Of a DNA stretch of 64,000 nucleotides, positions 1,359 to 61,294 are shown piece after piece (the stretch's first letter is position 1; every line of letters starts with the position of its first letter). The position numbers and the translations under genes were made by a program. A model generated the notes under the pieces. It worked only from the letters and a program-made list of their open reading frames with translations, made no database searches and was not told the origin of the DNA. Location: contig SAUG01000044.1 of assembly GCA_011316305.1 (NCBI GenBank), positions 62,001 through 126,000 of the forward strand, written 5' to 3'. The DNA is from Rusavskia elegans (Eukaryota; Ascomycota; Lecanoromycetes; Teloschistales; Teloschistaceae).

Positions 1359-1770
1359 TGTTACGTCTACCATTCCACAGAGGTATACTAGAAGATTAGC
1401 CAGGCAAGCGAATCTAATTATCTATAGCCGTCTATAGCCGCTATAACCGACCTCTATAATAGAATCTTTTAGCGGACAGCCGCCTATTAGTACTAGCGGC
1501 TATTTTTATTATATATATCGTTCCTTTATTTTTATTAGATAGCTTCTCTCGTTAGTCGTTAATATAATTATTAAATACGTTTCTACTATTTTCTATTAAA
1601 TACTTCCGTAATATAGACGCCTTATAATATTATAACCGTATTTTTACGGCTACGCGGGATTAGTAATAATAACCTACGCTAGAATTCCTTTACTATTTTG
1701 TAGTTCGAACTATATCTATAGCTATAGCTAGGTTTAAACGTAATACCTTTTAATATATAAAGACGTTATA
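1359..1770 (+). repeat. 5' LTR of element A
   Basis: 412-bp LTR with TG start (TGTTACG) and RIP-altered end (GTTATA for GTTACA). It contains the family's hallmark CTATAGCCG direct repeats in its first quarter and the TCGTTAATATAATTATTAA block in the middle. Confidence 0.9.
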
Positions 1771-1789
1771 TTTTAATAACTCCGAAAAA

Positions 1790-4700
1790 TAGATAAAAAT
1801 CGGATTTTTATTTAGTTAATATTATATAGATAACCTATAGAAACTTTAGTTAATTTAGAAACTATTCGAAATATTATATTAGAAAAATATATAAAAAGAT
1901 TTAATATTCCTTTAATTAGGAAAACTATACTTTATTTTATAGAAACTATTAATATAATAGAGTTTATTAAAGTTAAATATTAAACTAAATCTCTATAGAT
2001 ATAAAATAATAGATATAAAAAAAGAATTATTTTCGATATTATAAAAATATAAAAGGATATCTATTTAGATTTCCTATAGTTTATATTATAGAATCTAAAA
2101 ATTATTTAAAAAATAATATAAATAAAAATAGAAAACTACCTATTTAATATATCTAAAAGGTTAGCTGAAATAAAAAAATATATATTATTTTAATTCGAAA
2201 ATAGTAAACTAAAAAGAAAATAGCTACTATAAATAAAATTCTAAAACTATTTAAAGATTTCTAAAATATATTTAAAAAAACTAGAAAGAAAATTACTTTT
2301 ATCGGTTTATATCTAGAAAGATTATAAAATTATTATTATAGATTCCGATAAATTAAAAACTAGACCGATCTATAGATTAAATAATAAATAATCGAAAGTA
2401 CTATAATAGTATATTAACTATAATTTTAAGTAAAGATATATATATTATTTTAAATTAATAATAGAATAGCTAGTAATATTTATTCCGAAAAAAAATAGAA
2501 GTTCTTAACTTTATATTAATTTTAGACGACTTAATATAGTAATATAAAAAGATAAATATCTTTTATCTTTTCTAGTAAACTTTAAAAGCAGAATTAGAAA
2601 AGCTAAGTAATTTATAAAATTCGATTTAAAAGATACTTTTAATTTATTATAGATTAAAAAGGGAAATAAATAGAAAATAATATTTAGAATAAAATATAGA
2701 CTATTTAAATATTTAATAATTTTTTTTAGATTAATAAATATTTCTACGATTTTATATAAAGCGATTAATAAGATATTATATAATTATTTAGATATTTTTA
2801 TTATAATCTATATAGATAATATATTAATAGTTTCTAAAATAGAAAAAGGATATAGTTAATATATTTATAAAATATTATAAAAGTTCCGAAAAAATCATTT
2901 TAGAATTAAAAAAGAAAAATTAGAATTTTTTAAAAAAGAAATTATATTTCTAGAATATATAATTAGACTAGGAAATATTAATATAAGAGCTAATATACTT
3001 TAAATAATAAAAAAAAAGCTAGTTCCTAAAAATAAAAAAGATATTTAAAGCTTTTTAGAATTTATAGGATTCTATTAAAATATAATAGAAGAATATATAA
3101 AAAAGACTATCTCTTTAACGGATTTTCTATAAAACGATGAAACGTTTTAATAGATTTAAATAGAGCTTTATAAATAAAGAAGTATTAGATATATTCAAGC
3201 TAAAAAGATAGGTTATACAATATATAGAAATATTAGATAGAATCTTAGATTTTTATATAGTATAAAAGAGTAAACCGCTAGACTATTATTTAAAAAAATT
3301 TATACCGGTCGAAATTTATTATCTAATAATAGATAAAGAGATATTAGTAATTATTATAAACTTTAAATATAAGAAAATATATATAATCGGAATATCGGAA
3401 AAAGTAATAATCTATACCGACAATAAAAACCTTCTATTACTTTTAATTTATAAAAAATTTAACTAGAAATAAATAAAATAGTTAGAAGAGATTACTTATT
3501 ATAACTTCGAAATATGATATATTAAAGGTATAGATAATATAGTAGTAAATACTTTAAATCGAAAAATAGACTATAAAGCTATAGAAAAAATAGAAAAATT
3601 CTAGAAAGAATAGAAATATTAGAAAAAATAATTAATATTATCCGATAAGCGTATAATTCTATAATAGTAGGATATTAAAAAATAATAAAGATTCTAAAAA
3701 GAATTTAGAAGAAAACTAATATATTAGTATTTAAAAAATATATTAAAAAATATATAAAAAACTATCCCGAGTATTTAATATTTAAAAAAAGTTAATAAGG
3801 ACCTATTAGTAAACTTTACTTTATATAAATACCGGAGTATCTTTATTAATATATCGCGATAGATTTTATTATAAAATTTTCTAAGTCTATTAAATATTAT
3901 ATATACATATTATATAATATAATAGTTATAAATTTAGATAGATTTATAAAATATATAGAATTTATACCCTATAAAATAATAATAATAATAGAGTAGTTAG
4001 CGTTTCTGCTATTAAAAATAGTTTTTTATAAAAATTGTATCGCAGAAAAAATTATATCGGATTAGAATAAACTTTTTATTTTTAAATTTATAAAGAAATG
4101 AACGGAAGTAGTAGGAACTAAATAAATAATATTAATATTATTTTACCCGTAGACCGATAGATAGATAGAAAAAATAAACTGAATATTAGAATTATATTTA
4201 TAAATATACTATTTAGAAGAAAAGGACGATTAGATCTAACTTCTACCGACTATCTAGATAGTAACTAACTCGTTTTATAGTAAAGATATTAAAATAACGC
4301 TAGATGAGCTTCTATACGATAGAAAACTAAAGTATAAAATATTAACTAGAATAAATAACCTAGCAGCGTAAGCGTTTATTAATAAAATAAAAGAAAATTA
4401 AGATAAAATAAAAATAAAAATCTAGAAAGCTAAAGAAAAAATAAAATAGAAAGTTAATAAATTAAAAAGGAACTATATTATTAAAAAAGAAAATAAAATA
4501 CTTCTATTAATAAAAATTCTTTCTAATAAAAAATTAGACAGACTATATATAGGAACTTTTAAAATCTAAAATATTAAGAAAATAATAGTATATTTTAAAT
4601 TTTTAGTAATAGGAGTTTTTCTAAAATTCTATATAGGACTTTTTAAAAAAGTAACTAATAGGGTACTATTAGTAAAGGATTAGTACTATTAGAAAAGAAA

Positions 4701-4795
4701 ATAAAATAATAGATAAATTTCTAGTTAAGTAGAAAGAGTTCTCTAATAAAAATAATATTTAGAAAACTCTAAAAAGATTTAGAAAAATATTATAA
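1790..4795 (+). pseudogene. RIP-killed pol of element A: PR-RT-RNase H-IN-chromodomain
   Basis: This is a Ty3/Gypsy polyprotein remnant of about 1000 codons. Retropepsin comes first (about 1850-2100; LVNLETIRNII where relatives have LVDSGA.RNFI). RT is at about 2490-2900, with LILDDL..., KFDLKD-type and catalytic YIDN (for YVDD) near 2811. RNase H is at about 3290-3570 (IYTDNKNL). The integrase core is at about 3830-4180 (DRFTKY.EFIPY and YPQTD.QTE-like residues). A C-terminal chromodomain is at about 4690-4790 (LVK.K.F.NKNN..ENS-like). Many in-frame TAG/TAA codons stand at Gln/Trp positions. No gag precedes it. It would need capsid from elsewhere, possibly from F/G-type elements. Confidence 0.88.
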
Positions 4796-4804
4796 AGGGA
4801 ACCG

Positions 4805-5216
4805 TATTATATTTATATTTCTATAGAAATACACTAGAGGATTAGATAGATAAATAAATCTAAATATCTATAGTTATCTATAGCTATTATAGCCGATCTC
4901 TATAATAGAATCTTTTAGCGGATAGCTGTTTATCGATACTATCGGCTATTTTTATTATATATATCGCTTTTTTATTCCTATTAGATAGCTTCTCTTGTTA
5001 GTCGTTAATATAATTATTAATTACGTCTCTAATGTTTTCTATTAATTACCTCTATAATATAGACGCTTTATAATATCGTAACTATATCTTCGCGGCTACG
5101 CGGAATTAGTTACGATAACCTATACTAGGATTCTTTTACTATTCGGTAGTTCGGACTACGCCTACGGCTGTAGCTAGACTCGAACGCAACGCTTTTTGAT
5201 ATATAGGAACGTTACA
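4805..5216 (+). repeat. 3' LTR of element A
   Basis: 412 bp, same length as the 5' LTR. It keeps the GTTACA end but has an A at the second base of the TG start. Differences from the 5' copy are mainly C/T and G/A, as RIP produces. Confidence 0.9.
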
Positions 5217-5221
5217 GTATC

Positions 5222-8200
5222 TATTAGAACTACGCCGACGCGTTCCTATAATATCTATTCAAATCGGAGGTTATAATATTTATAACTATTCTGAATATAT
5301 TATATCTAGTAGATACGAATACTAGAAAGAATAATAGAAAAAAAAATAGAACTTTTAATTAGAAATTCTATAGATATATTTCGTAAGTAGATTATAAAAA
5401 CCAGAAATATAAAAACGTAAATAACGATTCGGAAAAAAAGAAATCTTTATAATAATAGGTATACTATAAGCGTATAACTTTATAGCCCGGAAAAAATAAT
5501 TAAATTTACCTAGCTATATATATACTCGAGATTAAAATATTTATTAAAATAAATAACGAATTTAAAAGAAAGTTAAAGTATTTATTAATTTAAATATAAC
5601 CGGAAATCTTATATTAGAGAATTTAGCTAAAAAGAAAAGGTTCCTTTAAACTAAAAAAAAGAATCTATATAATTTAATAGTTATCGATAAAAATAAAATA
5701 TCGAATAGAAACGGAAAGATTATAAAAAAAAAGATACAGTTTTAAATAATAATTAATTAGTACTAAAAAAAACTTTAATTCGATATTATTCGAATAGTTA
5801 ACTACGAAACTATATTTAGAATTCTTTAATTAAAAGATTATAATCTAGTAATAGACTAGAAAAAAAAAGTAATTAGCTTTAAATAATACTTTTATATAGA
5901 AAATATCTAGTCTATACCGAAATAGTAATCTCGGATAGATAAAAAATAGAATATAAAACGCGAATTTATAGCTTCGAAAAAAGATAATTAAAATCTATTT
6001 AGGTCCGATTTATTAGATACCGATAGAAGTTAGCTAGATTAATAAAATAGAAATAGAAAAGAAAATTATAAACCTTTCGAAAACTCTATACTATCTAATA
6101 AAAAGTTAATAGAAAATCTATTAGAAAGGATTCTAAATAAATATAAAAATTAGATAAACTTATTTTAGAAAAAGGTAACTATAAAAATTTTATCTAAATT
6201 TTAATTATAGAATTACGAAGTTAGATTTAAATTAGATAAATAACCTATATTTAGACTAATATATCTATTATCCGCGATAGAACTCGAAATACTCTATAAA
6301 TATCTAGACGAAAATATAAAGAAAGGATTTATTAGAAAATTTTAATTACTAGTAGAAAACCCGATCCTTTTTATATCTAAAAAAGACGGAAAACTCTATT
6401 TATATATTAATTATAGAAAGTTAAACGATATTATAATTAAGAACCGATATATACTACGAAATATTAGTAAACTTTAAAATAGATTTTCTAGAGCGAAATA
6501 TTTTATGAAATTTAATTTTCGAAGAATATATAATTTTATATAAATAAAGGCCGGAAAAAATTAGAAGATAGTTTTTTATATACGATATAGTTACTATAGA
6601 TATACGGTTTTATTATTTAGATTTATAAATACTCCGGTAATCTATTAGAATTTAATTAATAATATATTTAGAAAATATCTAGATATATTCGTTATCGCCT
6701 ATTTTAATAATATTCTAGCTTTTTCTTGAATATTCGAAGAATATAAATAATACGTTAGTAAAGTTTTTAAATATCTAGAAAAGAATAATCTACGCTTTAA
6801 ACCAGAAAAATATAAATTTTATAAAAAAGAAATTAACTTTCTAAAATTTATTATCGGATATAATAATATAGATATCGATTCTAGTAGATTAAAAGCTATT
6901 ATAGAATAGAAAATACTAATAAATATTAAAAAAGTCTAAAACTTCTTTAAATTTATAAATTATAATCGAAAGTTTATAAAAAACTATTTTAAAAGGACTT
7001 TTACTCTAATAGCTTTAATAAAAGATACTATTAAATAATATTAGAGAAAAAGAAATTAATAAATATTCGAAGATCTTAAAAGAGAAAATATAAAAGATCT
7101 AAAATTTAAAATATTCGATCTAAAGAAACTATTAAAAATAAAAATAGATTTATTAGATCTAGCTATAGATATATACCTTCTATAATAATACGATAGTAAA
7201 TAGTATCCGGTAGTATATATATTAAAAGAATTATCGCTAGCGGAATAGAATTATAAAATCTATAATAAAGAACTACTAGCTATAGTAGCTAAACTAGAAT
7301 AATAGATAGTATATATTAAAAAATTACTAGGGTTAATAATTTTTATATATAATAAAAATCTTCTATATTTTATAATAATAAAATAGATTAAAAGAAAATA
7401 AATATAATAGTTTTAACTTTTCGGTTAATATAAATTTAAAATATATTATATCTTATATAAAGAAAATAGAAAGATAGATATTTTAAATCGAAAAAGTAAT
7501 TATATAAAAATAAAAAAGGTTTTGGATAATAATATCTTAAAAGTTATGAAAAAAAAATTACTATTTATAAATTAGTAGAAGATAAATATAATAATATATA
7601 TATTAAAAGACGACTAAAAATAGTTTCCTATTAAAAAAAAACTACGAGTACTAGATAATAAAATCGACGAATATATTAAAGAATACTATAATAGAATACT
7701 ATAGAGATATCTAGGCGTAATGAAAATATTATAATTTATATAATAGTATTATTAATTTCCTATTATAAAGTAATATATCGAGGTATATATTAAAAAATAT
7801 TTTAGTTATTAATAAAATAATTATAATATATATATTTATTATAGAAAGCTCTAATTTTAAAAACTACCGGATTTACTATAGAAAGAAACTATATTAGATT
7901 TTATTATTAAACTTCTAAAATTAAAAGATCCGATAATAAATCTTAAATACGATTCGATATTTAATATAATAGATAGATTTAAGAAGTATATCTATATAAT
8001 TCTATTATAAAAAGACTTTATATTAGAATAATTTAGATTTATTAATCTAGATCGATTATTTCGATACTATAGATTACCGAAAGTATTAATAAATAATAAA
8101 AATAAACTCTTTACTTTTAATTATTAGAAAACCTTTATTTTTCTATTTAATATTAAACTAAAGATATTAATTGCTTTCTATCTAATAATATATTGATAAA

Positions 8201-8960
8201 TAGAATATATTAACTAGACTTTAGAATAATATCTTAAATATTATATTAATAATATTTAGAATAAATAGATTTCGATTTTACTGATAGTATAATTAGTATT
8301 TAATATAAAAGAATTAAATATAATAAAGGAAATCCGAATCTATTTAAATAACCGCTACTATATAAATTAGCGGAATTAATAATTTAAAAAATCGATATTT
8401 AAAAAAAAATCTATAGAAATATCCTAAAGATATAGAAATACTCGGATAATTATTAAAATAAAAAACGAAAAATAGTACTTTAGCTAAAAAAAAGAGACAA
8501 GGTATATCTTTTTATAAAGAATTTAAAGATAAAAACTTTAAGTAAAAAACTTAATTATATTAAAATTAGACTATTTTTAATTAAAGAAATTAAAGGATTT
8601 TAGAACTTCGAATTCGATCTATTTAAAGATATTAAAATATACCCGGTATTCTATATATTTCTTTTAGAACTAGCCGATCCCGGAATATCGCTATAATAGA
8701 TATTTAACTTCGAAATATAGGAGAAAGATACCTTTATAGTCGAGAAGATCCTATAATAAAAAGGTTAGAATTATCTAATTAAATAGAAAGGTTATTTTAC
8801 CTCGAAAAATATTTAGGAATCTAAAAAATATTTAGTAAATTACTAGAAAGCTCTATAGCAGTTCTACTAATAATAGATACTAAAATATTTTAGAAAGAAT
8901 CCGGCAGGTTATCTAAAATATTCTAGGTCTATAGAAATAAATTAAATAAAAGACTATCGG
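5222..8960 (+). pseudogene. Pol remnant of element C: PR-RT-RNase H-IN-chromodomain
   Basis: This is a + strand Ty3/Gypsy pol. The retropepsin part reads FINLNITGNLILENLAKK (relatives FIDSGATGNLIS) near 5580 and ends with FDIIRIVNYET near 5790. RT starts with PIYPLSAIELE near 6245, has SKKDGKLYLYINYRKLN near 6385, AKYFMKFNFRR near 6500 and AYFNNIL (for AYLDDIL) near 6695. RNase H has YNKELLAIVAKLE near 7260. Integrase has the HHCC start near 7690 and DRF-type core residues near 7970. The chromodomain has FIVEKIL...KG.NYLI...KGYFTSKN near 8735. It carries many RIP stops. Followed by about 0.5 kb without recognisable coding, then the 3' LTR beyond element B. Confidence 0.87.
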
Positions 8961-9241: not shown

Positions 9242-9651
9242 TATTACGTCCACGACTCTATAGAGGTTCCTTGGAAGGATTAGCTAGGCAAGCGAGTCTA
9301 ATTATCTATAGCCGCCTATAGCCGCTGTAGCCGCCCTTCCTAATAGGATTTTTAATAGACGGCTATCTATTAGCTTTTATAGCTACTTTTACTATATATA
9401 TCGCTTATTATTTCTATAGATAGTTTCTTTTATTAGTCGTTAATATAATTATTAAATACGTTTCTACTATTTTCTTTTTAATTACCTTATAATAAGGATA
9501 TCTTATAATATTATAACCGTACTTCTGCGGCTATATAGAAATAATTATAATAATCTATACTAGGATTCCTTTACTATTTAGTAGTTCGGACTATATCTAC
9601 GGCTATAGCTAGGCTCGGGCGTAATACCTTTTAATATATAGGGATATTATA
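9242..9651 (+). repeat. 5' LTR of element B
   Basis: 410 bp, starts TATTACGTCC (TG mutated to TA) and ends GATATTATA. It contains three near copies of CTATAGCCGC (about 9302-9330). Confidence 0.88.
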
Positions 9652-9724
9652 TTTTAACGATTCCGGAAAATAAATAAAAATCGGATTTTTATTTAATTAA
9701 TATTATTTAGACGACCTGTAGAAA

Positions 9725-12700
9725 CTTTAGTCGATTTAAAAGCTATTCGGAATATTATATTAAAATAATATATAAAGAGATTTAACGTCCTTTTAATTAG
9801 AAAAACGGAATTTTATTTTATAGGAACTATTAATAAGATAGAATTCGTTAGAATTAAATATTAGACTAAACCCCTATAGATACGAAGTAATAATTATAAA
9901 AAAAGGATTATTTTCGATATTATAAAAATATAAAGGGATATATATTTAGGTTTCCTATAGTTTATATTATAGAATCTAGAGATCGTTTAGAAAATAATAC
10001 GGGTAAAAATAGGAAACTACCTTTTTAATATATCTAAAAGGCTAGCCGAGATATAGAAGATATATAGTATTTTTATTAGGAAAAAATAGACTAAAAAGAA
10101 GTTAGCTATTATAGATAAAATTCTATAACTTTTTAAAAAATTCCAGGATATATTAAAGAAACCGAAAAGAAAGCTATCTTTACTGGTTTATATCTAAAAA
10201 GACTATAAAATTATTATAATAGACCCGGAAAAGCTAAAAACTAGAATAATTTATAGATATAATAATAATTAATTAAAAATATTAAGATAATATATTAACT
10301 ATAATTTTAAAAAAGGATATATATAATATTCTAAATTAAAGATAGAATAACTAGTTATATTTATTTCTAAAAAAAATAGTAATTTTCGATTTTATATCGA
10401 CTTTAGAAGATTTAACGCTATAATATAAAAAGATAAATATCTACTCCCGCTTTTAGCCGACCTAAAAAGTAGAATCGGAAAAGCTAAATTTTTTATAAAA
10501 TTTAATTTAAAGGACGCGTTTAATTTACTATAGATTAAAGTTAGAAACAAGTAAAAAACCGCGTTTAGAATAAAATACGGACTATTCGAATATTTAGTTA
10601 TATCTTTTAGATTAATAAATATACTAGCGACCTTATAATATATAGTTAATAAAGTATTATATAACTATCTCGATATTTTTATTATAGTATATATAGATAA
10701 TATACTAGTTATTTTCGAAATAAGAGAAAAATACGTATAATATATTTATAAAATATTATAAAGATTTCGAAAATATAATTTTAGAATTAAAAAAAAAAAG
10801 TCGGAATTCTTTAAATATAAAATTATATTATTTAGACACGTAATTAAGCCTGGAAGTATTACTATAAAGGTAACTAAAATATAAGTAATACGAGAATAGC
10901 TAATTCTAAAAAATAAAAAAAATATTTAAAACTTTTTAGAATTTATAGGACTTTATTAAAATATAATAGAAGGTTATATAAAAAAGACGGTCCCGTTTAT
11001 AAATTTATTCCGGAATAATATATCCTTTTAGTAGATATATATCTAAAACGAAACGTTTAAAAGATTTAAATAAAGTTTCGCGTCTAAAAAAGCCTTAGAA
11101 ATTTTCGATTCTAGCGAGCAGATTATTTTCTATATAGACGCGTCGGACCGAATAATAGGATCTTATATCTTCTAAAAAAAGAATCACTTAAATACTATTT
11201 TAGAAAATTAATACCGGCAGAGGTTAATTATATAATAATAGATAAAGAAATATTAGTAATTATTATAAACCTCGTATATTAGAAAATATATACGAGCGGA
11301 ACTAATAAAAAAGTAGTTATATATACGGACTATAAGAATCTTTTATCGTTACTAGTTAATAAAAAACTTAATTAATAATAGATAAAGTAAGTAGAAGAAA
11401 TAATCTATTATAACTTTAAAATAAGATATATTAAAGATATAGATAATATAGTTACCGATATATTAAGTAGAAAAGCAGATTACGAAGCTACTAAGAAAAT
11501 ATCTAGGTCTCTTTTAAAGAAAGTAGGAGATATTCTTAAAAAGGCCGAAATATCGGAAGAAATAAATAATATAATTCGATAGATATATAACTCTAGTACG
11601 GCTAGATATTAAAAAATTATAAAAATACTAAAAAGAATTTAAAAAAATACTAATATACTAGTCTTTAAGAAATATATTAAGGAATTTATTAAGAATTACC
11701 CGGAATATATATTAGTAAAAAAAAACCGTTAGAAGCTAGTAAATAGATTCTAACTAATATAAATACCGAATATACTATACTAATAAATCGTATTAGACTT
11801 TATTACAGGTTTACTAGAGTCGATCGACCTATATATATAAATATTATATAATATAATAGTAATAATTATAGATAGATTTACGAAATACGTAAGATTTATA
11901 TCTTATAAAATTATAATAACGGCGGAATAGCTCGCTTTTCTACTATTATAAACGATATTCTACGAAAACGGAATCGCGGAAAAATTTATTTTAGATAGAA
12001 ATAAACTATTTATCTCGAACTTTATAAAAGGATTAATATAAGTAGTAGAAACGGAATAGACTATATTAATATTATTCTATCTATAAACGGATAGATAAAT
12101 GGAAAGAATAAATTAAATACTAGAAATTTACTTTAGAATCTACTATTTAGACGAAGGAAAAAACTAGGTTTAATTTTTCCCGATAGTATAAATAGCGATT
12201 AATTTATTATATAATAAGGATATTTAGATAATTTCTGACGAATTACTTTATAATAAAACTATCCGGAAAGAAATTTACTCCGAAATAAAAAACCCGGCGG
12301 TATAATCCTTTGTTAATAAAATAAAGAATAATTAGGATAGAGTAAAAGTAAAAATTTAGAAGATAAAAGAAAAGGTTAAATAAAGATTAGATAAGTTAAA
12401 GAAGTATTACGATATTAAAAAGGGAGATAAAGTATTATTTTTAATAAAAAACTTAACTAATAGAAAGCTCGATAAACTTTATATAGAAGTTTTTAAAATT
12501 TACGATATTAAAGAAATAATAGTATACCTAAAACTTCTATTAATAGAAATTTTCTCTAAATTCTATATTAGCTTACTAAAGAAAGTATCGGAAAGTATTC
12601 TACTAGTAAAAGATTAGTACTATTAGAAATATAAAGAATATAAGATTAAGAAAATCCTAAATAAAAGAAAAGAAATAGATAAATTTTTAGTAAAATAAAA

Positions 12701-12795
12701 AGGATTTCCTAATAAAAAAAATATTTAGGAACTAAGAAAATACTTTAAATACGTTTAAAAAACCCTAAAAAGGTTTAGGAAAGCGATATAAAAGG
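9725..12795 (+). pseudogene. RIP-killed pol of element B: PR-RT-RNase H-IN-chromodomain
   Basis: The clearest pol of this family. Protease reads ETLVDLKAIRNIIL near 9725 and IYLGFP near 9945. RT (about 10380-10770) reads FRFYIDFRRFNAII, LLADLKSRIGKAKFFIKFN, YGLFEYLVISF and VYIDNILV. RNase H (about 11130-11480) carries IYTDYKNLLSLL. The integrase core (about 11790-12160) carries IVDRFTKYVRFI and an LFYL.TDR..ERI-type C-terminal part. The chromodomain is at about 12610-12780 (DKFLVK.KGFPNKKN). Stops are mostly TAG/TAA replacing Gln or Trp. Protein length about 1000 codons, short for a full gag-pol because gag is absent. Confidence 0.9.
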
Positions 12796-12800
12796 GGCTA

Positions 12801-13210
12801 TATTATATCTATAATTCTATAGAAATTCTTTAGAAAGATTAGCTAAATAAATAAATCTAATTATCTTTAGCCGCCTATAGCCGCTATAGCCGTCCTTTTT
12901 AATAGGACTTTTAGTAGACGGCTACCTATCGGCTTTTACGGCTACTTTTATTATATATATCGCTTATTATTTCTATAGATAATTTCTCTTGTTAGTCGTT
13001 AATATAATTATTAAATATATCTCTACTTTTTTCTTTTTAATTACTTTATAACGAAGATACTTTATAATATTATAATCGTATCTCTGCGGCTAAATAGAAT
13101 TAGTTATAATAACCTACGCTAGAACTCCCTTACTATTTAGTAGCTCGGAATACGTCTATAGCTGTAGCTAGGCTCGAGCGTAACGCCTTCTGATATATAG
13201 GGACGTTATA
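12801..13210 (+). repeat. 3' LTR of element B
   Basis: 410 bp, preceded by the AAAAGGGGCTA tract and followed by the TCTAG duplication. Confidence 0.88.
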
Positions 13211-13830: not shown

Positions 13831-14096
13831 CTATAATATTTTATTATAGAAATAATTAAAAAAAGAATAGTAGAAACGTATTAAATAATTATATTAATAA
13901 CTAATAAAAGAAGCTATTTAATAGAAATAAAAAGCGATATATATAGTAAAAGTAGCCGATAGTACCGATAGATAGCTGTCCGCTAAAAGTCTCTATTATA
14001 AAGGTCCGTTATAGCGGCTATAGGCGGCTATAGATAATTAGACTTATTTATATAACTATATTTCTAGTATATTTCTATAGAACTATAGATATAATA
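13831..14096 (-). repeat. 3' LTR of element D, truncated
   Basis: Matches about 267 of the 410 bp of the family LTR; the outer part is missing and abuts unrelated sequence. Confidence 0.8.
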
Positions 14097-14119
14097 TAGC
14101 CCCTTTTATAACGCTTTCC

Positions 14120-17100
14120 TAAATCTTTTTAGAATTTTCTAAATTTTTTTAAAATATTTTTTCGGTTCCTATATATTTTCTTTATTAGAAAATCCTTTCT
14201 ATTTAACTAAAAATTTATCTATTTTCTTTTTTTTATCTATAATCTTTTTAATTTCGTATTTCTTTCTCTTTTAATAGTATTAGTTTTTTACTAATGGTAT
14301 CCTATCTAGTATTTTTTTAAAAAGTCCTATATAGAATTTTAGAAAAATTCCTATTACCGGAAATTTAAAATATACTATTATTCCTTTAATATTTTAGATT
14401 TTAAAAGCTTCTATATATAGTCTTCCTAGTTTTTTATTAATAAAATCTTTTATTAATAAAAGTATTTTATCTCTTTTTTTATTATTATAGTCTTTTTTTA
14501 ATTTATCTATTTTCTATTTTATTTCTTTTTAGTTTTTTAAATTTTTATCTTAGCTTTATTCTAATTTCTTTTTATTCTATTAAAAAATATTTATATTATT
14601 GGATTATTTATTATAGTAGTAATCTTCTATTTTAACTTTCTATTATAAAGAAGTTTTTCTAGAGTTATTCTAGTAACTTCAATATATAAAAAATTAATTA
14701 CTATTTAGATAATCGGAAAAAATTAGATTTAATTTTCTTTTTTAATAAAATAGTATATTTATAAATATAATTCTAATATATAATTTATTTTTTCTATCTA
14801 TCTATCGGTTTATAAATAGAATAAAAATAATATGATTTATTCGGTTCCTACTATCTATTTTAATTTCTTTATAAAGTTTAAAATAAAAACTTTATTCTAA
14901 TCCGGTATAATTTTTTCTGTAATATTATTTTTATAGAAAACTATTTTTAATAATAAAAATACCAGCTGTTCGGCTATTATTATGATTTTATAAAATATAA
15001 ACTTAATATATATCGTAAATCTATCTATAATTATTACTATTTTATTATATAATATCTTTATATAGAGATTAACGGATTCCGGAAATCTTATAATAAAGTC
15101 TATTATAATTTATTAATAAAGCTATTCCGATATTTATATAGAATAAAGTTTACTAATAGATTCTTTTATATTCTTTTTTAATATCGAATATTCGAATTGA
15201 TTTTTAATATATTCTTTAATATATTTTTTAAATATTAGTATATTAGTTTTTTTTTAAATTTTTTTTAATATTTTAGTTATCTTTTAATATATTACTATTT
15301 TAGAATTATACGTTTATTAAATAATATTTTTTTTTTTTCTAATTATTTCGCTTTTTTTAATAATTTTCTATTCCTTTTTAATAATAGTCTATTTATTTTT
15401 TCTATAGCTTTATAATTTATTTTTTAATTTAAAGTATTTATAATTTTATTATCTATACTTTTAATATATTATATTTTAAAATCGTAATAAATAATTTCTT
15501 CTAACTATTTTATTTATCTCTAGTTAAATTCTTTATTAAATAAAAATAATAAAAGACCTTTATAATTAGTATAAATTATAACTTTTTTCGATATTTCTAT
15601 TATATATATTTTCTAATATATAAAAAATATAATAATAGTTAATATTTTCTTATCTATTATTATATAATTCATTTTAGTTTATATTAATTTCTTTAAATAA
15701 TATATTAATAATTTACCTTTTTATATTATATACGAATCTAAGGCTCTATTCGATATTTTTATATAAAATATAATTTTCTTTTCTAGACCGATTATATTTA
15801 AAGCTTTTTTATTTATAAAACTTTATTTAAATTTTTTAAATACTTTATTTTCTATTTATATCTACTAGAATATTTTATTATTTTATAGGAGATTTATTAT
15901 AGAAATAGTCTTTTCTATATATTTTTTTATTATATTCTAATAAAATCTGGTAAAATTTAAAAAACTTTAAATATTTTTTTTATTTTTTAAAACTAGCTAT
16001 TTTTTTATTACCTAAAGTTTATTAGCTTCTATAGTAATTTTTTCTAGTCTAATTATATATCCTAAAAATATAACTTTTATTTTAAAAAATTCTAATTTTT
16101 TTTTTTAATTTTAAAATTATATTCTCGGAATTTTTAAAATATTTTATAAATATATTAGTTATATTTTCTTCTTTATTTCCGAAAATATTAGTACGTTATC
16201 TATATAAATTAAAATAAAGATAATTAAATAGTCGTATAATATTTTATTTACTATTTATTATAAAGTCCGGAGAATACTTATTAATTTAAAAAATATTACT
16301 AAATATTTAAATAGTCTATATTTTATTCTAAATATTATTTTCTATTTATTTCTATTTTTAATTTTTAATAAATTAAATACGTCCCTTAGATCCAGTTTTA
16401 TAAACTATTTAACTCTTTTAATTCTACTTTTAAAATCTACTAGAAAAAATAGGAAATATTTATTTTTTTATATTATTATATTAAGTCGTCTAAAATTAAA
16501 ATAGAATCGGAAATTTCTATTTTTTTTAAAATAAATATTACTAATTATTCCAATTTTAATTTAGAATAGTATAAATATTTTTATTTAAAATTATAATTAA
16601 TATATTATTATAATACTTTAAATTATTTATTATTTAATTAATAGATTAATCGAGCTTTTAGTTTATTAAAATCTATAATAATAATTTTATAATTTTTCTA
16701 GATATAAGCCGATAAAAATAACTTTTTTTCTAGTTTTTTAAATATATTTTAGAAATCTTTAAATAATTATAGAATTTTATTTATAATAGCTACTTTTTTT
16801 TTAATCTATTATTTCCGAATAAAGATATTATATATTTTTTTTATTTCGGCTAACCTTTTAGATATATTAAATAGATAGTTTTCTATTTTTATCTATATCG
16901 TTTTCTAAATAATTTCTAGATTCTATAATATAAATAATAGGATATCTAAATAGATATTACTTTATATTTTTATAATATCGAAAATAGTTTTTTTTTTATA
17001 TCTATTACTTTATATCTATAAAGATTTGGTTTAATATTAAATTTTAATAAACTTTATTTTATTAATAGTTCCTATAAAATAATATTCTAATTTTCTAATT

Positions 17101-17210: not shown

Positions 17211-17243
17211 CTAATTTTTATCTATTTTCCGGAGTTATTAAAA

Positions 17244-26296: not shown

Positions 26297-26533
26297 TATA
26301 CGGGGCTATATTTAATTAAAAACTACTTTTTCTAAATAAATTATTATAAATAAAACTTTAACTACTTTTTTTAGAAACTGATTTATATATAGTAAGAAAT
26401 AGATGTTTATCTAAATAAACTAAAGTTTTAAAAATCTTTTATTTCCTTTATTAATATTTAGCGTTACTATTTTAATAGTATTAATTTATTCTATAGAGTA
26501 GGATACCGAGACTAATATAGTAAATTATTAAAA

Positions 26534-46100: not shown

Positions 46101-46520
46101 AAATTATAAAGTAAATGACCGATATAACTCGAAATCGATTCTATATATTAGAAAATATAATAATTATAAATTTGATAATTATAGTACAGAGTTTTACGAT
46201 ACCGGATTTATAACTAAAGATATAAAAGCAGTAGATACGTAGAAATTAGAATATAATTAAATAATTTAGAAACGAAATCTATAGTGTAGCTAAATTATAA
46301 AAAAGAATTATAAACGCTAAATTCGATCCGGGTTACGCTAAACCTTTAGCAAAAGATCACGTAACTTTTTGTCAGAAAAATAATAACAATTGATCTACCA
46401 CATACAGGTTTTCAGATATCAAATCTTTGCTATCCGGCCAAACCACAAGGTCTATAAGACGTCAGATTCTTTAATTTATAAGGACTGCCGTCGCATATTC
46501 ACCAAACAGAAAGCTCATTT
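46101..46520. promoter_or_regulatory. Upstream region of the DPBB gene
   Basis: Composition changes from RIPped to ordinary at about 46330-46400. A frame open from a TTG at 46390 joins the gene in phase, but the first ATG that gives a signal peptide is 46528, so I take 46390-46527 as 5' leader. No clear TATA box or other motif. Confidence 0.4.
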
Positions 46521-46527
46521 GGTTACA

Positions 46528-51289: not shown

Positions 51290-52760
51290 TTAATATTTCA
51301 ATTTCAATTTTATATTAGTTCGAATTTCAATCTATAACGTCAGATATATATTGCGTATATATAATAGAAAGTTGACAGTATTGGATTTAGATAGACTGGC
51401 CGTCGGGTCGAATTTTGAACCCGGGTTAGCTAACCCGATCCGACTCGAATCGGATTAAAAAATAGTCTAATCCGACCCGAGTTGGATCGGATTTTTCTAA
51501 AATTCGATCCGATTCGGATCCGGGTCGAATCCGGATTCCCGGATTCGATTCGCTAAAACACTAAACTCTAGTATAAAAGTAAAATTCTAATATAAAAATA
51601 ATTCTAATTCTTTTCAAAAATTCTAGCTAATTAACTACGCTAGCTAGAAAGGTCCTAGTTAATTTACAAGTATTATCTAAATGTATTTCTTCTATAGATA
51701 GTTAATAAATTACTTAACTATTTATAAATAATTAATTAATTACTTTTTAAATCATTAATTATACAATTTTCTAATAATTTATTGATTTTTTAAACAAATA
51801 TATATATTATATTACTATATATTAAAGATTTGGCGAATCGGGTCGGATTTCCGTCGAATTTTATTTTATAACCCGACCCGACTTTCGGATCTAATATAAA
51901 GATTCGATCCGATCTAAAATGGCCAGTCTAGATTTAAATACGGTTTAGCGCCGGCCTAGTAGAACTGGTAGGGCTGATAGAGCTGCTAGAAATATTATTA
52001 ATAACTATTTTCTAAAGATCTAATTATTAAACGCCTATTGGTTAGAATTTGGTTATTTATACATCGTTCGAAAGCTTCAAAGAAACTCTTTAATTTATAC
52101 GAGTTCTAATCTATAATATCAGATACGTATTACGTATATATACTAGAAAGTTAAAAGTATTAGATTTCAGTAAAACTTGGTATTTCTAGTAAAGCTATCA
52201 GGAATATTACCAATAATCCTATTTTAAACATCTAATTTCTTAACGCCTATTAGTTAAAATTTGATTATTTTCGTATCGTTCGAAAGTTCTGAATAAGTTT
52301 TTCGATTGGTATAACTTCTAATCTATAACGTCAGATATATATTGCGTATATATAATAGGATGTTAGAAATACTAGAATTTATTAAAGATTAGTATTTTTG
52401 GTAGAATTGTCAGGAATATTACTAATAACCTTGATTTAAATATCTAATTTCTCAACGCCTATTAGTTAGAATTTGATTAGATTTATATTATTCGAAAACT
52501 CTAAATAAGTTGTTTAATATATATAATTTCTGATCTATAACGTCAGCTACGTATTACGTATATATAGCAGGAAGTTAACGCTGGATTTAGATAAAATTTA
52601 ACGCCGGTCCAGTAGGCCTAGTAACTATTACTATCTATACGGTCGTAATAGATAAAAGTAATCTATACGTCTAAATTCTAAACGTCTATTAGTTAAATAT
52701 AAATACAATTTTGATATATTTTTAAAATTTATTAAACTTTTTAAATAAAACTAGTTTTCA
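51290..52760. repeat. 212-bp satellite, four to five degenerate units, split by a MITE
   Basis: The anchor AACGCCTATT recurs at 52030, 52242 and 52454 (exact 212-bp steps) and as AACGTCTATT at 52681. A second anchor (ACGTCAG...TATTGCGTATATATA) recurs in each unit and also before the MITE near 51338. Units start near AACGCCGG.C.AGTAG. There is no coding frame shared between units. A distant unit lies at about 63180-63310. Confidence 0.85.
51392..51930 (+). mobile_element. hAT-type MITE, 539 bp, inserted in the satellite
   Basis: Ends TAGACTGGCC and GGCCAGTCTA; flanks GATTTAGA (51384-51391) and GATTTAAA (51931-51938) differ by one G/A change. The subterminal CGGGT/ACCCG motifs are well kept. 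Confidence 0.87.
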
Positions 52761-53010: not shown

Positions 53011-53418
53011 TATAACGTCTCTGTATATTAGAAGGCGTTACGTTCGAGTTTAGCTACAGCCGTAGACGTAGTCCGAACTACTAAATAGTAAAAGAGTCCT
53101 AGCGTAGACTATTATAACTAATCCTATATAGCAGTAGAGATATAATTACGATATTATAAGATATTATTATTACGAGATAATTTAAAAGAGAATAGTAGAG
53201 ACGTATTAAATAATTATATTAATAACTAATAAAAGAAGCTATCTATAGGAAAATAAGGAATTTATATATTAAAAGTAGCTATAAAGGTCGATAGATAGCC
53301 GTCTACTAAAAACTTTATTAAAAAGGGCGGCTATAGCGGCTATAGGCGGCTATAGATAATTAGATTCGCTTATCTAGCTAATTTTCTAAAGTATATCTAT
53401 AGAGTTATAAATATTATA
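53011..53418 (-). repeat. 3' LTR of element H
   Basis: 408 bp, TATAACGTC at the left and AATATTATA at the right edge. Confidence 0.86.
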
Positions 53419-54046
53419 CAACTCTTTTTATAGCGTTCTTCTAAACATTTTTAAGGTTTTCTAAATATTTTTAAAATACTTTTTTAATTTTATATATTTT
53501 CTTTATCCGGAATCCTTTTCTATTTAACTAGAAATTTATCTATTTTATTTTGTTATCGATAATTTTTTTAACTTTATATTCTTCCCGTTTCTAGTAATAT
53601 TAATCTTTAGCTAGTAGTATATATTCGGGTATTCTCTTAAATAAATATATATAAAATTTAGGAAAAAATCCGATTATAGAAAATTTAAAATATACTATTA
53701 TTTTTCTATCTTCTAGATTTTAAACGCCCCGATAAATGGTTTATCTAATTTTCTATCGGTTAAATTTTTTATTAAAAGAAATATTTTATATTCTTTTTAA
53801 ATATTATAATATCTTCTAGGTTTATCTACTTTTTTTAACCTTTTTTTTTATTTTTTAGATTTTTACTTTTACTTTATTTTAGTTATTTTTTATTTTTTTT
53901 ATAAAAGTCCATACTATAGAATTCTTTATATCCGAATAGATCTTTTATCGTATAGATTTACTATAGAATAACTTATCTAGTATAATCTAAATATCCTTAT
54001 TATATAATAAATTAATTACTATCTACGCCGTTAGATAAAGCTATAT

Positions 54047-54454
54047 TGTAACGTCCCTGTATATTAGAGGGCGTTACGCTTGAGCCTAGCTATAGCCGTA
54101 GACGTATTCCGAGCTATTAAATTGAAAAGGAATCCTAGTATAGATTATCGTAACTAATCTTATATAGCCGCAGAGGTACGATTACGATATTACGAGGCGT
54201 CTTTATTATAAAGTAATTAAAAAAAAATAGTAGAGACGTATTTAATTATTATATTAATAACTAATAAAAGAAACTATTTATAAAAGTAATAAGTAATATA
54301 TATAATAAGAATAGCTATAAAAGCCGATAGGTAGCCGTCTACTAAAAATCCTATTAAAAAGGACGGCTATAGTAGCTATAGACGGCTATAGATAATTAGG
54401 CTCGTTTATCTAACTAATTTTCTAGAGAACCTCTATAGAATTATAGATATAATA
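54047..54454 (-). repeat. 3' LTR of element G
   Basis: 408 bp. Its plus-strand left edge TGTAACGTCCC is one of the best-kept ends of the family. Confidence 0.88.
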
Positions 54455-54479
54455 TAGCCCCCCCTATATTACTTTATAC

Positions 54480-56960
54480 CTAGCGTAAAAACCGTCTACG
54501 GGGTATAAAGAGGATTTTCTACTTCCTTTTTCTTCCTTCCTTTATTAGTACCTTTATTATACGTTTTTAAAGGGGAAATTAACTAAAATTATTTTATTAT
54601 ATCTAGTTAAGAGGAATTATAATACCTTTTCTTTATTTATTATATATCTATAATCTTTTAAAAGAATATAAAGTCGAGGTTAGTAGTAATATTTATAGTA
54701 AATATATTCGGGTTTAGAAATTCTGCGATATTCTAATATCTAATATTATCTATATATTATTTATTCCGTTTCTTATTCCTACTAACTCTATATAGAGAAA
54801 TATTTTAAAAATAAAAAAAATAAACTTCGTTTTAATATCGCAGGTATTTTTAATAAATATTCCGAGGTTTATTATTATATCGAATCCTTTTTTAATTCTA
54901 AAAAGGAAATTTATAATAAACGTATTATCTAGGAATTAGATTTCTACCGATTCTTTAATAAATAAAAGCGTTTTATTATTTATTATCGCGTTTTAGATAA
55001 GTATAAAAGTAATTTTATTATTTAAAAGTAATACGTACTTTTTTATTTTAATAAATTTAATAATCTAGTTTAGTTTTATTTTTCCGTTAATTTTATACTA
55101 GCTATATAAAAGGCGTCCGTTAAATTAATACCTAGATTTAATTTAGATAATCTAGATTAAATCTTAAAAGATTTTAACTTCTTTTAATCTATAAAAAATA
55201 TAGAGTTTTAAAGAAAATCTAATAAAAGATTTCTTCGCTATTATTTTTATAGATTCCGGATTATATATTTATATTATAATTTATTTCCGGCTTTTCTAAT
55301 AGTCCTACTAAATTTTATTTTTTAGTAACTATTTCGTTCTATAATAATAAAGACGGGTACTAATCGAAATTTTTATTTCTAGATTAAATACTAAATATTA
55401 GATCCGAAATTCTTTTATTTTAATCTATTTAATTTAATTTATAGTATTCGATTTTATCTATAGCTTTAACTATATTCTAGTCTATCTTTCTAATATAGTT
55501 TATCTAAAGCTTTTAAATTATTTTTTTATTTTTATTATATTTTTTAATAAGTTATTAGAAAAGATAATAGTATTTTTTTTTAAATTTTCGTTTCCTAAAT
55601 TTTTCCGCTTTCCTTAAATTTTTTATTAAAGTCTTTAATTTCTTTATAATTTATTATAAAATTAACGTCTATTTTTTTATATAAATAGTTTTTATAGGCT
55701 AGAAGATATATTATTTATAGTTTAATTTTTTTACTAATAGTATTTTTTTCTATTAATTTTTCTAAAATTAATTCTTTTTTTTTATTTCCTAAAATAATAT
55801 AACTTCTCTAACTTTCGATTATAGTAAAACTTATTATTTTAATTAATTTATATTTTATCTTAATTTATATATCGAGAATTCTATTATTATTTATTATTCG
55901 TCTATAGAGATATCCTCTAATCTTATTATAAAATCCTTTTATAATTTTATTATCTTCTTTTCTATTTACGAAAGCTATTATTTATTAACCTCCGATTTTA
56001 ATTTTAAATACTACTATAAAGGACTTTTCGGTTTTATATAATTTAAAATCGATTATCGGCTTTATTTTTTATACTTTTTTTAGTTTTCTAGAATAATATC
56101 CTATCCCCTCTTTATCCGATAGATAAATAGGGTAAATATTATTATAATAGGCTAACTAGCTTTTTACTATATATCTATTAGGTAATTCCTTTATTATTTC
56201 GAAAAGATATTCGGTTACCTTAATTATTTCTTTAGTTAAATAATTCTTTTTAAAGTATCCTGTTTTTTTATATAAATAATAAACTTTAGTTTATAATCTT
56301 TTAGTTTCGGTAGTATCGAGTTCTATCGGATTTTTTCTAGGCTTTCTTTTAATAGATCCTATTTTACTAAACGTTTAATTATTTAAGTATATTTTATACT
56401 ATCTGGTATTAATCCTTATTATAAATTCGATAAAATCTACTAATAAATCTAGGTCTTTAATCGCTATTATAGCTTTATTAACTTTTATTTAAAGTCCTTT
56501 ATAGAAATAGGCTTTTAAAACTAAATTTTCCTAGTTTATTTTATAAGCTAATATTCTAAATTAAGTAGTATAGATAGCTACCGATTTCTATTATTTTAGA
56601 ACTATTAGTTTCCTATCTATTATACTATCTTTATTATTATTTCCGAAGGCTTCTTTTATAACTATAATAAAATTACCGAAAGTATAAAAGATCTATAATA
56701 TTTTATCTTCTTTTTATCTTTCTAGGTTATTAAAATAATCTCCTATTTAGAGCTATACCTAATTAAAAGTAGTCTTTTCTAGATATAATATTATAAATAG
56801 AACTTTAATTACTTTATTTAGAAACTAGTTTATATATAATATAAAGTAGATATTTATCTAAATAACCTATAGCTTTAGGGATCCTTTATTTCTCTTATAG
56901 ATACTTAATATTACTACTTTAATAGTATCGCTTCGATCTATAGATCGGGATAATAAAACT
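54480..56960 (-). pseudogene. Gag (plus retropepsin-like part) of element G
   Basis: Minus strand. The capsid part at about 56740-56330 reads KIFYTFGNF-like (IFYTFGNFIIVIKEAFG), then VLK..KSVAIYTT*FRILAYKIN and FYKGL*IKVNKAI, matching the Ty3 gag series F..W......A..F..L.Q.GSVA.Y...F..LA. The zinc knuckle at 56281-56240 reads YYLYKKTGYFKKNY (CX2CX4HX4C after undoing TGT-to-TAT and CAC-to-TAC). Toward the C-terminus, near 54890, GFDIIINLGIFIKN resembles the end of a retropepsin domain. Roughly 800 codons in all. RIP stops throughout; the F copy supports the same frame. Confidence 0.82.
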
Positions 56961-56980
56961 AATATAGTAAATTATTAAAG

Positions 56981-57389
56981 TATAACGTCTCTATATATTA
57001 AAGAGCGTTATATTTGAGCCTAGCTATAGCCGTAGATATAGTCCGAGCTATTAAATAGTAAGGGAGTTCTAGTATAAGTTATTATAACTAATCCTATATA
57101 GCCGTAGAGGTACGGTTATAATATTATAAAGCGTCTTTATTATAAAGTAATTAAGAAGATAATAGTAGAAATATATTTAATAATTATATTAATACCTAAT
57201 AAGAAAAACTATCTATAGAAATAATAAGCGATATATAGAGTAAAAATAGCCGTAAAGGCCGACAGGTAGCTGTCTACTAAAAGTCCTATTAGGAAGGACG
57301 GCTATAGCGGCTATAGGCGGCTATAGATAATTAGGCTCGCTTGTTTAACTAATTTTCTAGGGAACTTCTATGGAGTCGTGGACGTAATA
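56981..57389 (-). repeat. 5' LTR of element G
   Basis: 409 bp, edges TATAACGTC and GACGTAATA. Confidence 0.88.
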
Positions 57390-59797
57390 TATATCTAATT
57401 TTTATATTTTTCTAAATAATAGATTTTTAAATAGATTTCTAATATTTAATTTCTTCTTTCCGTCTAACTATCTATTTATAGAAATAACGACGATGATATT
57501 ACCTATTCTATTTCTACTATCTATATTAGTAATTTTATAAAATTAGAAATAAAGTGTTTATCTCTATCCGATAGAATTTTTTCTACGATTCTATTTTTAT
57601 AAAAAACCGTTCTTAATAGTAGAAATAAAAACTACTCCGCCGTTATCATTCTATTATATAGTATAAACCTTATATATTTCGTAAATCTATCGACTATTTT
57701 TACTATCATATCGTATAATATTTATATATAAAAGTTAATATTTATCGTAATTTACTAGTAGGGCGCGCTTAGAGTTTATATCGGCTAGAGTTTATCTATC
57801 TATTTCTATCGACTTTTCTTTAATATTACGTATTATAGACAGTTTTTAATATATTTTTCGATATACTTCTTAAATATTAGTATATTAGTTTTTTTTAAAT
57901 TCGTTTTAGAATCTTTATAACTTTCGAATAGCCTACTATTTTAGGGTCGTATATTTATCGGATTATTTTATTAATTTTTTTAGAAAATTCTATCTTTTCT
58001 AGAATATTTCCGACTTTCTTTAAAAGTAGTCTGGTTATTTTTTCTATAGTTTTATAGTCCGCCTTCCTATTTAAAATATCGATAACTATATTATCGGTAC
58101 CTTTAATATATTTTATTTTAAAGTCGTAGTAGATTATTTTTTCGGTCTATTTTATATATATTTTCTAATATACGAAACTAGCAACTATTACTAGTATTTC
58201 TTTATCTATCGTCGTATTATTAACTTCCGCGGGGGTTAACTTTCTAGAATCGTATTCTAGAGGTTTGCTTTTTAATAATATATATAATCTAAATATCCGA
58301 TCCGAAGCGTCCGTATAGAAGATAATCTATTTATCGGGATTAAAAATCCCTAGGGCTTTTTTAGTCGCGAAACTTTATTTAAATTTCTTAAATACTTTAT
58401 TTTCGACTCGATTCTACTAAAATACGGCATTATTTCGAAGTAAATCTATTAATAGTAACGTTTTTTTATATATCCTTCTATTATATTCTAGTAGAACCCC
58501 GTAAATTCTAAAAATCTTTAGATATCCTTTTTATTTTTTAGCGTCGGCTATTCTCCTATTATTTATAATTTATTTACTTCTATTATAATTTTCTCTAGTC
58601 TAATTAAATATTCTATTAATATTACTTTCTATTTAAAAAATTCTAATTTTTCTTTTTTAATTTTAAAATTATATTCCCGAAATCAAAATATTATTATTTA
58701 TAGATATATTATTTATATTTTTTCCTTGTTTTCGAAAATAATAGTATATTATTTATATCAACTATAATAAAAATATTAAAATAGTTATAAAGTTCTTTAT
58801 TAACCGTATATTATTAAGTCGCCGGTATATTTATTAATCCGAAAAGTATAACTAAATATTCGAATAGTCTGTACTTTATTCTAAACGCCGTTTTCTATTT
58901 ATCTCCTATCTTAGAATCTAATAGATAAAAGGCGTCCTTTAGGTTAAATTTTATAAAAGATTTAGCTCTTTTAATTTTGCTTTTTAAGTCGGTTAGAAAA
59001 GAGAATAGATATTTATCTTTCTATATTACTATATTAAATCGTCTAAAGTCGAAATAAATTTATAGGTTACTATTCTTTAATAGAATAAATATTATCGATT
59101 ATCCTATTTTTAATTTAGAATATTATATATATTTTTATATAAGAATATAGTTAATATATTATTATAATACCTTTAACTAGTAATTATTTAATTCTAAAAT
59201 TAGCTTAGCTTTTAGCTTTTCCGAAACTATTATAATAATTTTATAGTCTTTCTAGATATAAATCGGTAAAAGTAGTTTTTTTTCCGATTTCTTTAATATA
59301 TTCTAGAAATCTCTAAATAGTTATAGAACTTTATTTATAGTATCTAATTTCTTTTTAATCTACTATTTTCGAATAAAGATATTATATATCTTTTTTATTT
59401 CAGCTAATCTTTTAGATATATTAAAAAAGTAGTTTTCTATTATTATCTATAATATTTTTCCAATCGATCTCTAGATTATATAATATAAACTATAGGATAT
59501 CTAAATATATATCTCTTTATATTTTTATAATATCGAAAATAATTTTTTTTTATATATATTATCTTATATCTATAGGAATTTAGTAAAATACTTAACATTA
59601 ATTAACTCTATTCTATTAATAGTTCCTATAAAATAAAGTTCCGTTTTTCTAGTTAAAGGGACGTTTAATCTCTTTATAAATTTTTCTAATATAATATTCT
59701 AAATAGCGCCCGAGTTAAATAAAGTTTCTATAGATTATTTAAATAACTTTAGCTAGATAAAAATCTGACTTTTATTTATTTTCCGGAGTTATTAAAA

Positions 59798-60206
59798 TAT
59801 AGTATTTCTATATATTAGAAGACGTTACGTTTAAGCCTAGCTATAGCTGTAGATATAGTTCGAACTACTAAATAGTAAAGGAATTCTAGTATAGATTATT
59901 CTAATTAATTTTATATAGCTATAGAAGTACGGTTATAATATTATAAGATATCTTTATTATAAAGTAATTAAAATACGAATAGTATTAATATATTTAATAA
60001 TTATATTAATAATTTATAAGAGTAACAATCTATAGAAGTAATAAGCGATATATATATTAAAAATAGCTGTAAAAGCCGATAGATAGCCGTCTACTAAAAT
60101 CTTTATTAGAAAGGGCGGCTATAGCGGCTATAGGCGGCTATAGATAATTAGATTCGCTTGCTTGGCTAATTTTCTAGAGTATTACGGTGGAGTCGTAGAC
60201 GTAATA
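59798..60206 (-). repeat. 5' LTR of element H
   Basis: 409 bp, edges TATAGTATT and GACGTAATA. Confidence 0.86.
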
Positions 60207-60258
60207 TTCTATTAGTATCTATTTTATATTCCGATTTTATTTTCTGTTTTTATATTAG

Positions 60259-61294
60259 TATAACGTCTCTATATATCAGAAAACGTTACGTTCGAATCTA
60301 GCTATAGCCGTAGATGTAGTCCGAGCGACTAAATAGTAAGGAAATTCTGGCGTAGATTATTATAACTAGTCCCGTATAGCCGTAAAAGTAAAGTTATAAT
60401 ATTATAAAACGTTTTTATTATATAGATAATTATAAAATAAAATTCGGATTAGTATTGAATAACTATATTAATAACTAATTATAAAAGCTATCTATTAGAT
60501 ATAAAGAGCGATAACTTTTAAAGCAAAATTTTTCTAGTCCGTTTTATATATTAATATTCTAAACTAAATAGTATAAATAGCTACCGACTTCTACTATTTT
60601 ATAACTATTAGTTCCATTTCTATTATCTTATATTTATTATTATTATCGATAGTTTCCTTTATAGCTATATTTAGATTACTAAATTTATAAAAGATCTAGA
60701 ATATTTCGTTTTCTTTTTTATTTTCCGAATTATTGAAATAGTTTTCTACTAGAAACTTTATCTAATTAAAAGCTATCATTTCTAGATATAATATTATAAA
60801 TAGAAATTTGAATAGTTTATTCGAAAACTAGATTACGTATAATATCAAATATATATTTATCTAAATAAACTATAACTTTAAAGATTTTCTATCCTTTTTA
60901 TAGATATTTAGCGTAGCCGTTTTAATAGTATCGGTTCGATCTATAAATCGGGGTAACGAAATTAATATAGTAAATATTAAAGTATAACGTCTCTATATAT
61001 TAGAAGATACTACGCTCGAGTCTAGCAATAGCCGTAGGCGTAGTTCTAGCTATTAAATAGTAAAGGAGCTCTAGCGTAGATTAGTATTTAATATTTATGT
61101 TGATAACTAATCAAAAAATCTATCTAATAGATATAAAGAGTGATATATATAATATAAAGACTATTATACCTGACGGGATCGACCTACTAAATAGAGGCGA
61201 CTCTATAGCTCTAGCGACTCCAATTGAATTAAGCTAGTAGTCCGTTTATTTAATTGATAAACGTAAATACTTCTAAAGAATCGTTGACGTAATA
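60259..61294 (-). mobile_element. Element I: 1.04-kb deletion derivative of the gag element
   Basis: The 5-bp duplication ATTAG is perfect (60254-60258 and 61295-61299). The left LTR is complete only for its first about 250 bp (60259-60512) and then joins gag sequence (60513-60982) homologous to G at about 56528-56980. The right LTR (60983-61294) lacks about 100 bp internally. Since both outer ends and the duplication are intact, the deletions arose after insertion, or the small form moved as such. Confidence 0.85.
60513..60982 (-). pseudogene. Gag N-terminal fragment in element I
   Basis: Aligns with the first about 470 bp of G's interior, including the part before the capsid; no zinc knuckle is present. 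Confidence 0.75.

Follow-up and report, generated by a model that had tools for sequence, protein, structure and literature searches.

The stretch of Rusavskia elegans DNA considered here (the window; 64,000 nucleotides, C160:62001-126000 in an assembly of 44.16 Mb and 217 contigs) harbors a family of long terminal repeat (LTR) retrotransposons with a divided coding capacity: one kind of element carries pol without gag, the other gag without pol, and both are bounded by the same LTR. This observation is confirmed and applies to the 44-Mb assembly as a whole, in which LTR-pol-LTR and LTR-gag-LTR elements of one Ty3-type chromovirus family occur. Together they probably constitute a two-component (bipartite) Ty3/chromovirus LTR retrotransposon, the halves of which are copied in shared particles. 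The evidence leans slightly towards a stricter form of this reading, an obligate bipartite element. Its genome would be split for good between two elements that integrate separately and have diversified together into matching gag and pol groups, with LTRs kept alike by strand transfer in common particles. The pol half also exists as an open protein of 1040 amino acids (aa) in another public sequence.

Two Kinds of Element Adjoin the Same LTR

The LTR, 412 bp long in element A, has many occurrences and is followed by two kinds of interior. The pol type encodes protease (PR), reverse transcriptase (RT), RNase H, integrase (IN) and a chromodomain; the gag type encodes a capsid, a zinc-knuckle region and about 400 further codons. 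Element A (1359-5216, + strand) consists of an LTR (1359-1770), an interior (1771-4804) and a second LTR (4805-5216), flanked by the target site duplication (TSD) GTATC (1354-1358 and 5217-5221). Its broken pol frame (1789-4783, +) spans all five domains and is matched piecewise by residues 1-1027 of P0005, the open 1040-aa protein, whose start coincides with that of the pol frame and whose end is the chromodomain. Element B (9242-13210, +) has the perfect TSD TCTAG and a broken pol frame (9670-12785, +), matched as two pieces by P0005 residues 1-1039. In element D (about 13840-17625, − strand; pol match 17225-14112) the outer ends of both LTRs are cut. Element H (53011-60206, −; TSD TAGAA) is interrupted by the inserted element G, and its pol matches lie at 59779-57374 and 54040-53480. 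The original prediction held that these four elements carry pol without gag and begin protease near the 5′ LTR. Residue 1 of P0005 indeed aligns at 1789 (A), 9670 (B), 17225 (D) and 59779 (H), about 18 nt past the 5′ LTR, and the alignments continue to or near the end of P0005.

Three elements in the window are of the gag type. Element F (23341-26943, −) has its 5′ LTR at 26943-26525, an insertion of about 0.8 kb in the gag interior and no 3′ LTR of its own; on its 3′ side an LTR piece of the opposite strand occupies the place where one in its own orientation would stand. Element G (54047-57389, −; TSD ATATA), located inside H, comprises an LTR, an interior of about 2.5 kb with a single long broken frame, and an LTR. 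Its capsid and nucleocapsid region (56857-56099, −) matches residues 1-257 of the relative P0001 at 52 % identity. Element I (60259-61294, −; TSD CTAAT) has undergone an internal deletion that leaves an interior at 60974-60515 with about 150 gag codons, and hence no zinc knuckle. P0001 aligns at 26410-24771 in F, 56857-56099 in G and 60860-60516 in I, and neither P0005 nor P0004, a second pol relative, aligns inside these elements, apart from 15 nt overlapping G at its edge. That F, G and I bear gag and lack RT and IN is thus borne out; the zinc knuckle attributed to them is deleted in I and elsewhere was recognized by eye in mutated sequence, with no match in Pfam.

Identity of the Proteins

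The order PR-RT-RNase H-IN with a C-terminal chromodomain is that of Ty3 chromoviruses. In the genomic copy L055, a single frame runs from just past the LTR through the chromodomain, and pieces of it pass the Pfam cut-offs for RVT_1, RT_RNaseH, Integrase_H2C2 and Chromo; the model of the IN catalytic core finds no match in these pieces. The protease is weak in decayed copies (Peptidase_A2_2 at 0.012 in one of six, gag-asp_proteas at 0.16 in one of six). P0004, with 67 % identity over 96 % of the query, starts just upstream of a DSGA motif and matches gag-asp_proteas at 1.5e-5 with 25.9 bits, below the cut-off of 28.2 bits.

Single decayed gag copies mostly fail Pfam, with PF03732 appearing in one of seven profile rows (8.7e-4). 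The first homologue search, with the gag of copy L043, returned no relatives, and neither the pieces of this gag nor its C-terminal piece contain a notable Pfam domain. A profile of seven gag rows, for which PEG10 is the only PDB match (E 0.14), found the relatives P0001-P0003. P0001 exceeds the cut-offs for both Retrotrans_gag (2.8e-12) and Ty3_capsid (2.1e-7), and the PEG10 capsid (4.6e-5) is the one PDB entry that it matches. A scan of the genome with PF03732 gave no match, nor did any control, and is hence uninformative. Scans of viral and prokaryote contigs yielded no relatives of P0001 or P0004. Beyond the nucleocapsid region the gag type continues for about 400 codons (about 55970-54450, −, in G) with third-position bias along most of their length; this part matches no Pfam family and no PDB chain. 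A dead protease was considered for the stretch past the zinc knuckle and is not supported by profile comparison (hhalign probability of 1.8 against the PR of the pol type).

Architecture across the Assembly

Over the whole assembly, 252 gag matches from two merged searches fall into 178 places and 119 pol matches into 118. None of the 178 gag places is followed on its strand by a pol place that starts within 0-1700 bp. In the nearest pair, 1735 bp apart, the gag element has inserted into the pol element (L040). A pair on contig C14, with RT 2035 bp downstream and the only one closer than 2.5 kb in the first comparison of gag with RT, was rejected as a gag-pol copy because it is a nesting. At L040 (G000:C14:126600-134100) the gag type sits inside the pol type just as G does in H.

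RT matches were sampled in two sets. The first comprised 30 loci (L009 and L010-L038), 12 of which, including L009, were counted as other families; five of the 11 non-family loci among L010-L038 have short, weaker matches. All 18 family loci of L010-L038 have the LTR directly 5′ of PR. The second set added 19 loci evenly spaced through the list, the twentieth (L056) being already in the sample; 16 have no family match, and the other three again have the LTR directly 5′ of PR. Several gag-pol elements with the same LTR, the finding that would have refuted the original prediction, were sought assembly-wide and did not turn up among the candidates scored; the LTR directly precedes PR in 21 of 21 family loci picked by RT. 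The gap from LTR to RT match is about 700 bp, which leaves space for PR and none for gag. LTR followed by pol was also found in all 10 pol loci fetched at length, most of them picked via the LTR or the LTR-PR junction. The 40 best matches of a query running from the LTR end to PR are all unbroken, a result given no weight because the query selects the junction, a bias that most of the 10 pol loci share.

Among gag-picked loci (18 evenly spaced through the list and 10 fetched at length), a matching LTR adjoins 28 of 28, with L061 aligning from interior base 34 only and L073 having a partial LTR; both LTRs are present in nine of the 10 fetched at length. Nearly all scored gag matches (102 of 104, among 950 candidates) reach at least query residue 395, that is, the part following gag only in the gag type. 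A single frame of about 2.5 kb aligns across the gag copies L043, L044, L045, L046 and G. The same leader is found throughout 17 aligned pol copies and the same 3′ half in all 10 gag copies extending that far, which points to one split, older than the groups X, Y and Z described below. As a control, in L024 and L032, which belong to other Ty3 families, a gag-end motif (2.7e-5 and 9.5e-5), a PR motif (by eye) and RT lie within one 1.5-kb stretch in different frames. The union of gag and pol in one element, usual for Ty3 chromoviruses, was not found in the split family among the candidates, which were scored in part. Another locus, L009 (G000:C209:918969-919742), holds an open frame of 847 aa with an RT domain and has no match to the split family.

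The two kinds might instead be deletion products of a gag-pol family that is scarce in this genome or has been lost and that spawned and mobilized gag-only and pol-only copies as ordinary pairs of autonomous and non-autonomous elements. The partial scoring of the candidate lists leaves this explanation some room. However, no gag-pol copy was found among the scored candidates, and the gag type carries some 400 further, mostly third-position biased codons that match nothing in Pfam or PDB. A single structure characterizes each kind in all three groups X, Y and Z, which indicates an old and single split, so the halves do not resemble the outcome of repeated deletions. Such an origin is thus unlikely, and coding constraint (below) argues against it too.

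Shared Cis-Sequences and Group Pairing

As predicted, the two kinds have in common the LTR, the first bases after it and the polypurine tract (PPT). The shared 5′ sequence extends about 13 nt past the LTR and then diverges abruptly; the shared 3′ end comprises the G-run PPT and about 20 nt before it. Such stretches are the sites of minus-strand priming, plus-strand priming and integration signals. Self-priming from the LTR was considered and performs no better than control windows, and no tRNA gene was found in the window. The perfect 5-bp TSDs claimed for A, B, G, H and I are all present. Over 15 elements with both outer ends (a sample that leaves out D, F and L055), 12 have perfect 5-bp TSDs, two more are off by one transition and one fails. 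The two kinds were thus inserted as separate units.

The window is strongly AT-rich (GC 15-36 % in 2-kb steps), and the decay by transitions across it is read as putative repeat-induced point mutation (RIP). RIP cannot yield transversions, and only these were counted for LTR distances and for constraint. The comparison covered 66 five-prime LTRs, 34 of the pol type and 32 of the gag type, after exclusion of five duplicate loci and partial LTRs. Mean separation hardly depends on kind (gag-pol 0.0322, gag-gag 0.0333, pol-pol 0.0318), and the closest neighbor of an LTR shares its kind in 32.2 of 66 cases, with 32.5 expected. The LTRs of the two kinds are completely mixed.

Group labels were set from trees of the interiors, built without LTRs. 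Among pol elements, groups X and Y have supports of 92 and 95, whereas Z is a grade that lacks support. Among gag elements, X and Y have supports of 98 and 62, and Z comprises two groups whose support is weak to fair. The pol element with the closest LTR belongs to pol X for 13 of 13 gag X, to pol Y for three of three gag Y and to pol Z for 11 of 15 gag Z. The LTR difference between unmatched and matched groups was reached in 0 of 5000 permutations, which do not remove relatedness. Gag distance and partner distance correlate at 0.38 (0 of 5000 permutations) and, within X, at 0.34 (6 of 5000). The major groups are therefore paired, and fine matching is seen only within X. Thus the two-component reading gains support from the LTR comparison that the original prediction had proposed.

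LTRs could also be made alike by gene conversion among scattered copies, without any interaction of the two kinds. The LTR groups outside X are resolved only partly, as this would allow. Nevertheless, likeness follows the groups, across the major division as well as inside X, and it ends about 13 nt past the LTR and about 20 nt before the PPT, the borders expected of strand transfer. Moreover, when the two LTRs of an element are compared with each other, transversions amount to 0-2.1 % in 14 of 15 pairs and to 4.6 % in H. Gene conversion is accordingly a very improbable source of the likeness.

Coding Constraint

Transversions at codon positions 1, 2 and 3 number 141, 154 and 242 in the gag type and 201, 140 and 410 in the pol type. 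In group X alone, which is younger than the split, the counts are 14, 13 and 51 for gag and 39, 14 and 124 for pol. The LTR control shows 61, 51 and 47 (p=0.37). Both proteins have thus been under coding constraint after the split, including within group X, a persistence not expected of deletion products.

This result also bears on a third-party explanation, in which each kind is a parasite of another Ty3 family that supplies what it lacks. The genome does contain other Ty3 families in which gag and pol occur together. Under this scheme, however, gag and pol would need no constraint, yet both are constrained, and the gag type and pol type share LTRs with each other. It is improbable, though less so than gene conversion.

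A Proposed Two-Component Cycle

In the two-component reading, the gag-type element would be the source of Gag, and the pol-type element that of protease, RT, RNase H, integrase and chromodomain. One and the same LTR would drive transcription of both elements. Gag from the gag type would form particles that package both RNAs, and the pol-type enzymes would reverse transcribe both from the same primer site and PPT. The same integrase would then insert the two cDNAs separately. Strand transfer between two RNAs in one particle would prevent the LTRs and the primer-site bases from drifting apart, whereas everything in between diverges. From these data we infer co-packaging and homogenization of the LTRs by template switching. 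Because only two separate kinds were found, with the same end sequences, mutual dependence is likewise deduced, and the pattern suggests that neither half moves without the other.

Several points weigh against the two-component reading. Stops are present in every listed gag or pol match of the split family. Known pairs of autonomous and non-autonomous elements look like what the deletion explanation describes, as far as the consulted parts of the sources go (PMC11302176, PMC2410132, PMC3735527), and a rare gag-pol copy could escape among gag and pol candidate lists scored in part. Outside X, in addition to the partial resolution of the LTR groups, gag distance shows no significant correlation with partner distance (−0.03; 2573 of 5000 permutations).

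Other Features of the Window

A decayed Ty3-type pol of another kind lies between A and B (6091-8349, +), with about 27-30 % identity to P0004 and P0005, and a distant RT fragment at 34726-35441 (−) has 23-27 % identity to them. The only open reading frame of at least 150 aa (46390-47034, +) falls within a 2-kb step of 36 % GC and has no Pfam match. A 212-bp unit is repeated in tandem at 52013-52578 (2.7 copies, 77 % matches).

Relation to Known Partnerships

The comparisons that follow draw on parts of the cited papers. In wheat, RLG_Cereba and RLG_Quinta have their LTR ends, primer site and PPT in common, as the two kinds do here, and one gives Gag and the other enzymes, a relationship for which the authors proposed mutualism (PMC11302176). 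RLG_Quinta encodes Gag and a domain of unknown function, much as the gag type combines Gag with about 400 unmatched codons. In contrast to the enzyme element described here, Cereba encodes Gag and is called autonomous (PMC11302176); no such autonomous partner was found among the candidates scored. RLG_Sabrina and RLG_WHAM, also of wheat, resemble the gag type in coding for Gag without RT and IN and in co-evolving with a partner, but that partner, RLG_Wilma, encodes GAG, RT and IN (PMC9744471). Athila of Arabidopsis includes families that encode only Gag and in which purifying selection acts on gag; in contrast to what was found here, the system has a gag-pol member (PMC2410132).

BARE-2 of barley is a pol-coding element that cannot produce Gag and whose RNA, as proposed for the pol type, enters particles (PMC3735527). 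However, BARE-2 is of the Copia type, its deletion takes the gag start codon and leaves gag in place, and BARE-1 makes both Gag and Pol (PMC3735527). Here gag is absent from the pol type, and no autonomous relative appeared among the scored candidates. The gag type has the LTRs and gag frame, without RT or IN, of a TR-GAG, plus the further codons. TR-GAG transposition has been seen, and the helper proposed for TR-GAG is a related element with the full protein set (PMC8704663), a counterpart of which was not found among the candidates scored.

Searches of the open-license literature, as far as the texts consulted extend, recognized no reciprocal gag-only/pol-only family, and PMC9910759, in the portions consulted, is silent on gag. 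The new point is that no autonomous gag-pol member was found, whereas each partnership compared, in the portions consulted, includes one. LTR elements are commonly held to persist through at least one member with gag and pol, with gag-only or gag-deficient copies regarded as parasites or helpers. If the two-component reading is true, retroelements would include a divided genome of two reciprocal halves, both constrained and sharing LTRs. Divided genomes exist in some RNA viruses. Such an arrangement would allow Gag and Pol to be dosed independently, with no need of frameshifting, and would make template switching between partners testable through LTR sequences.
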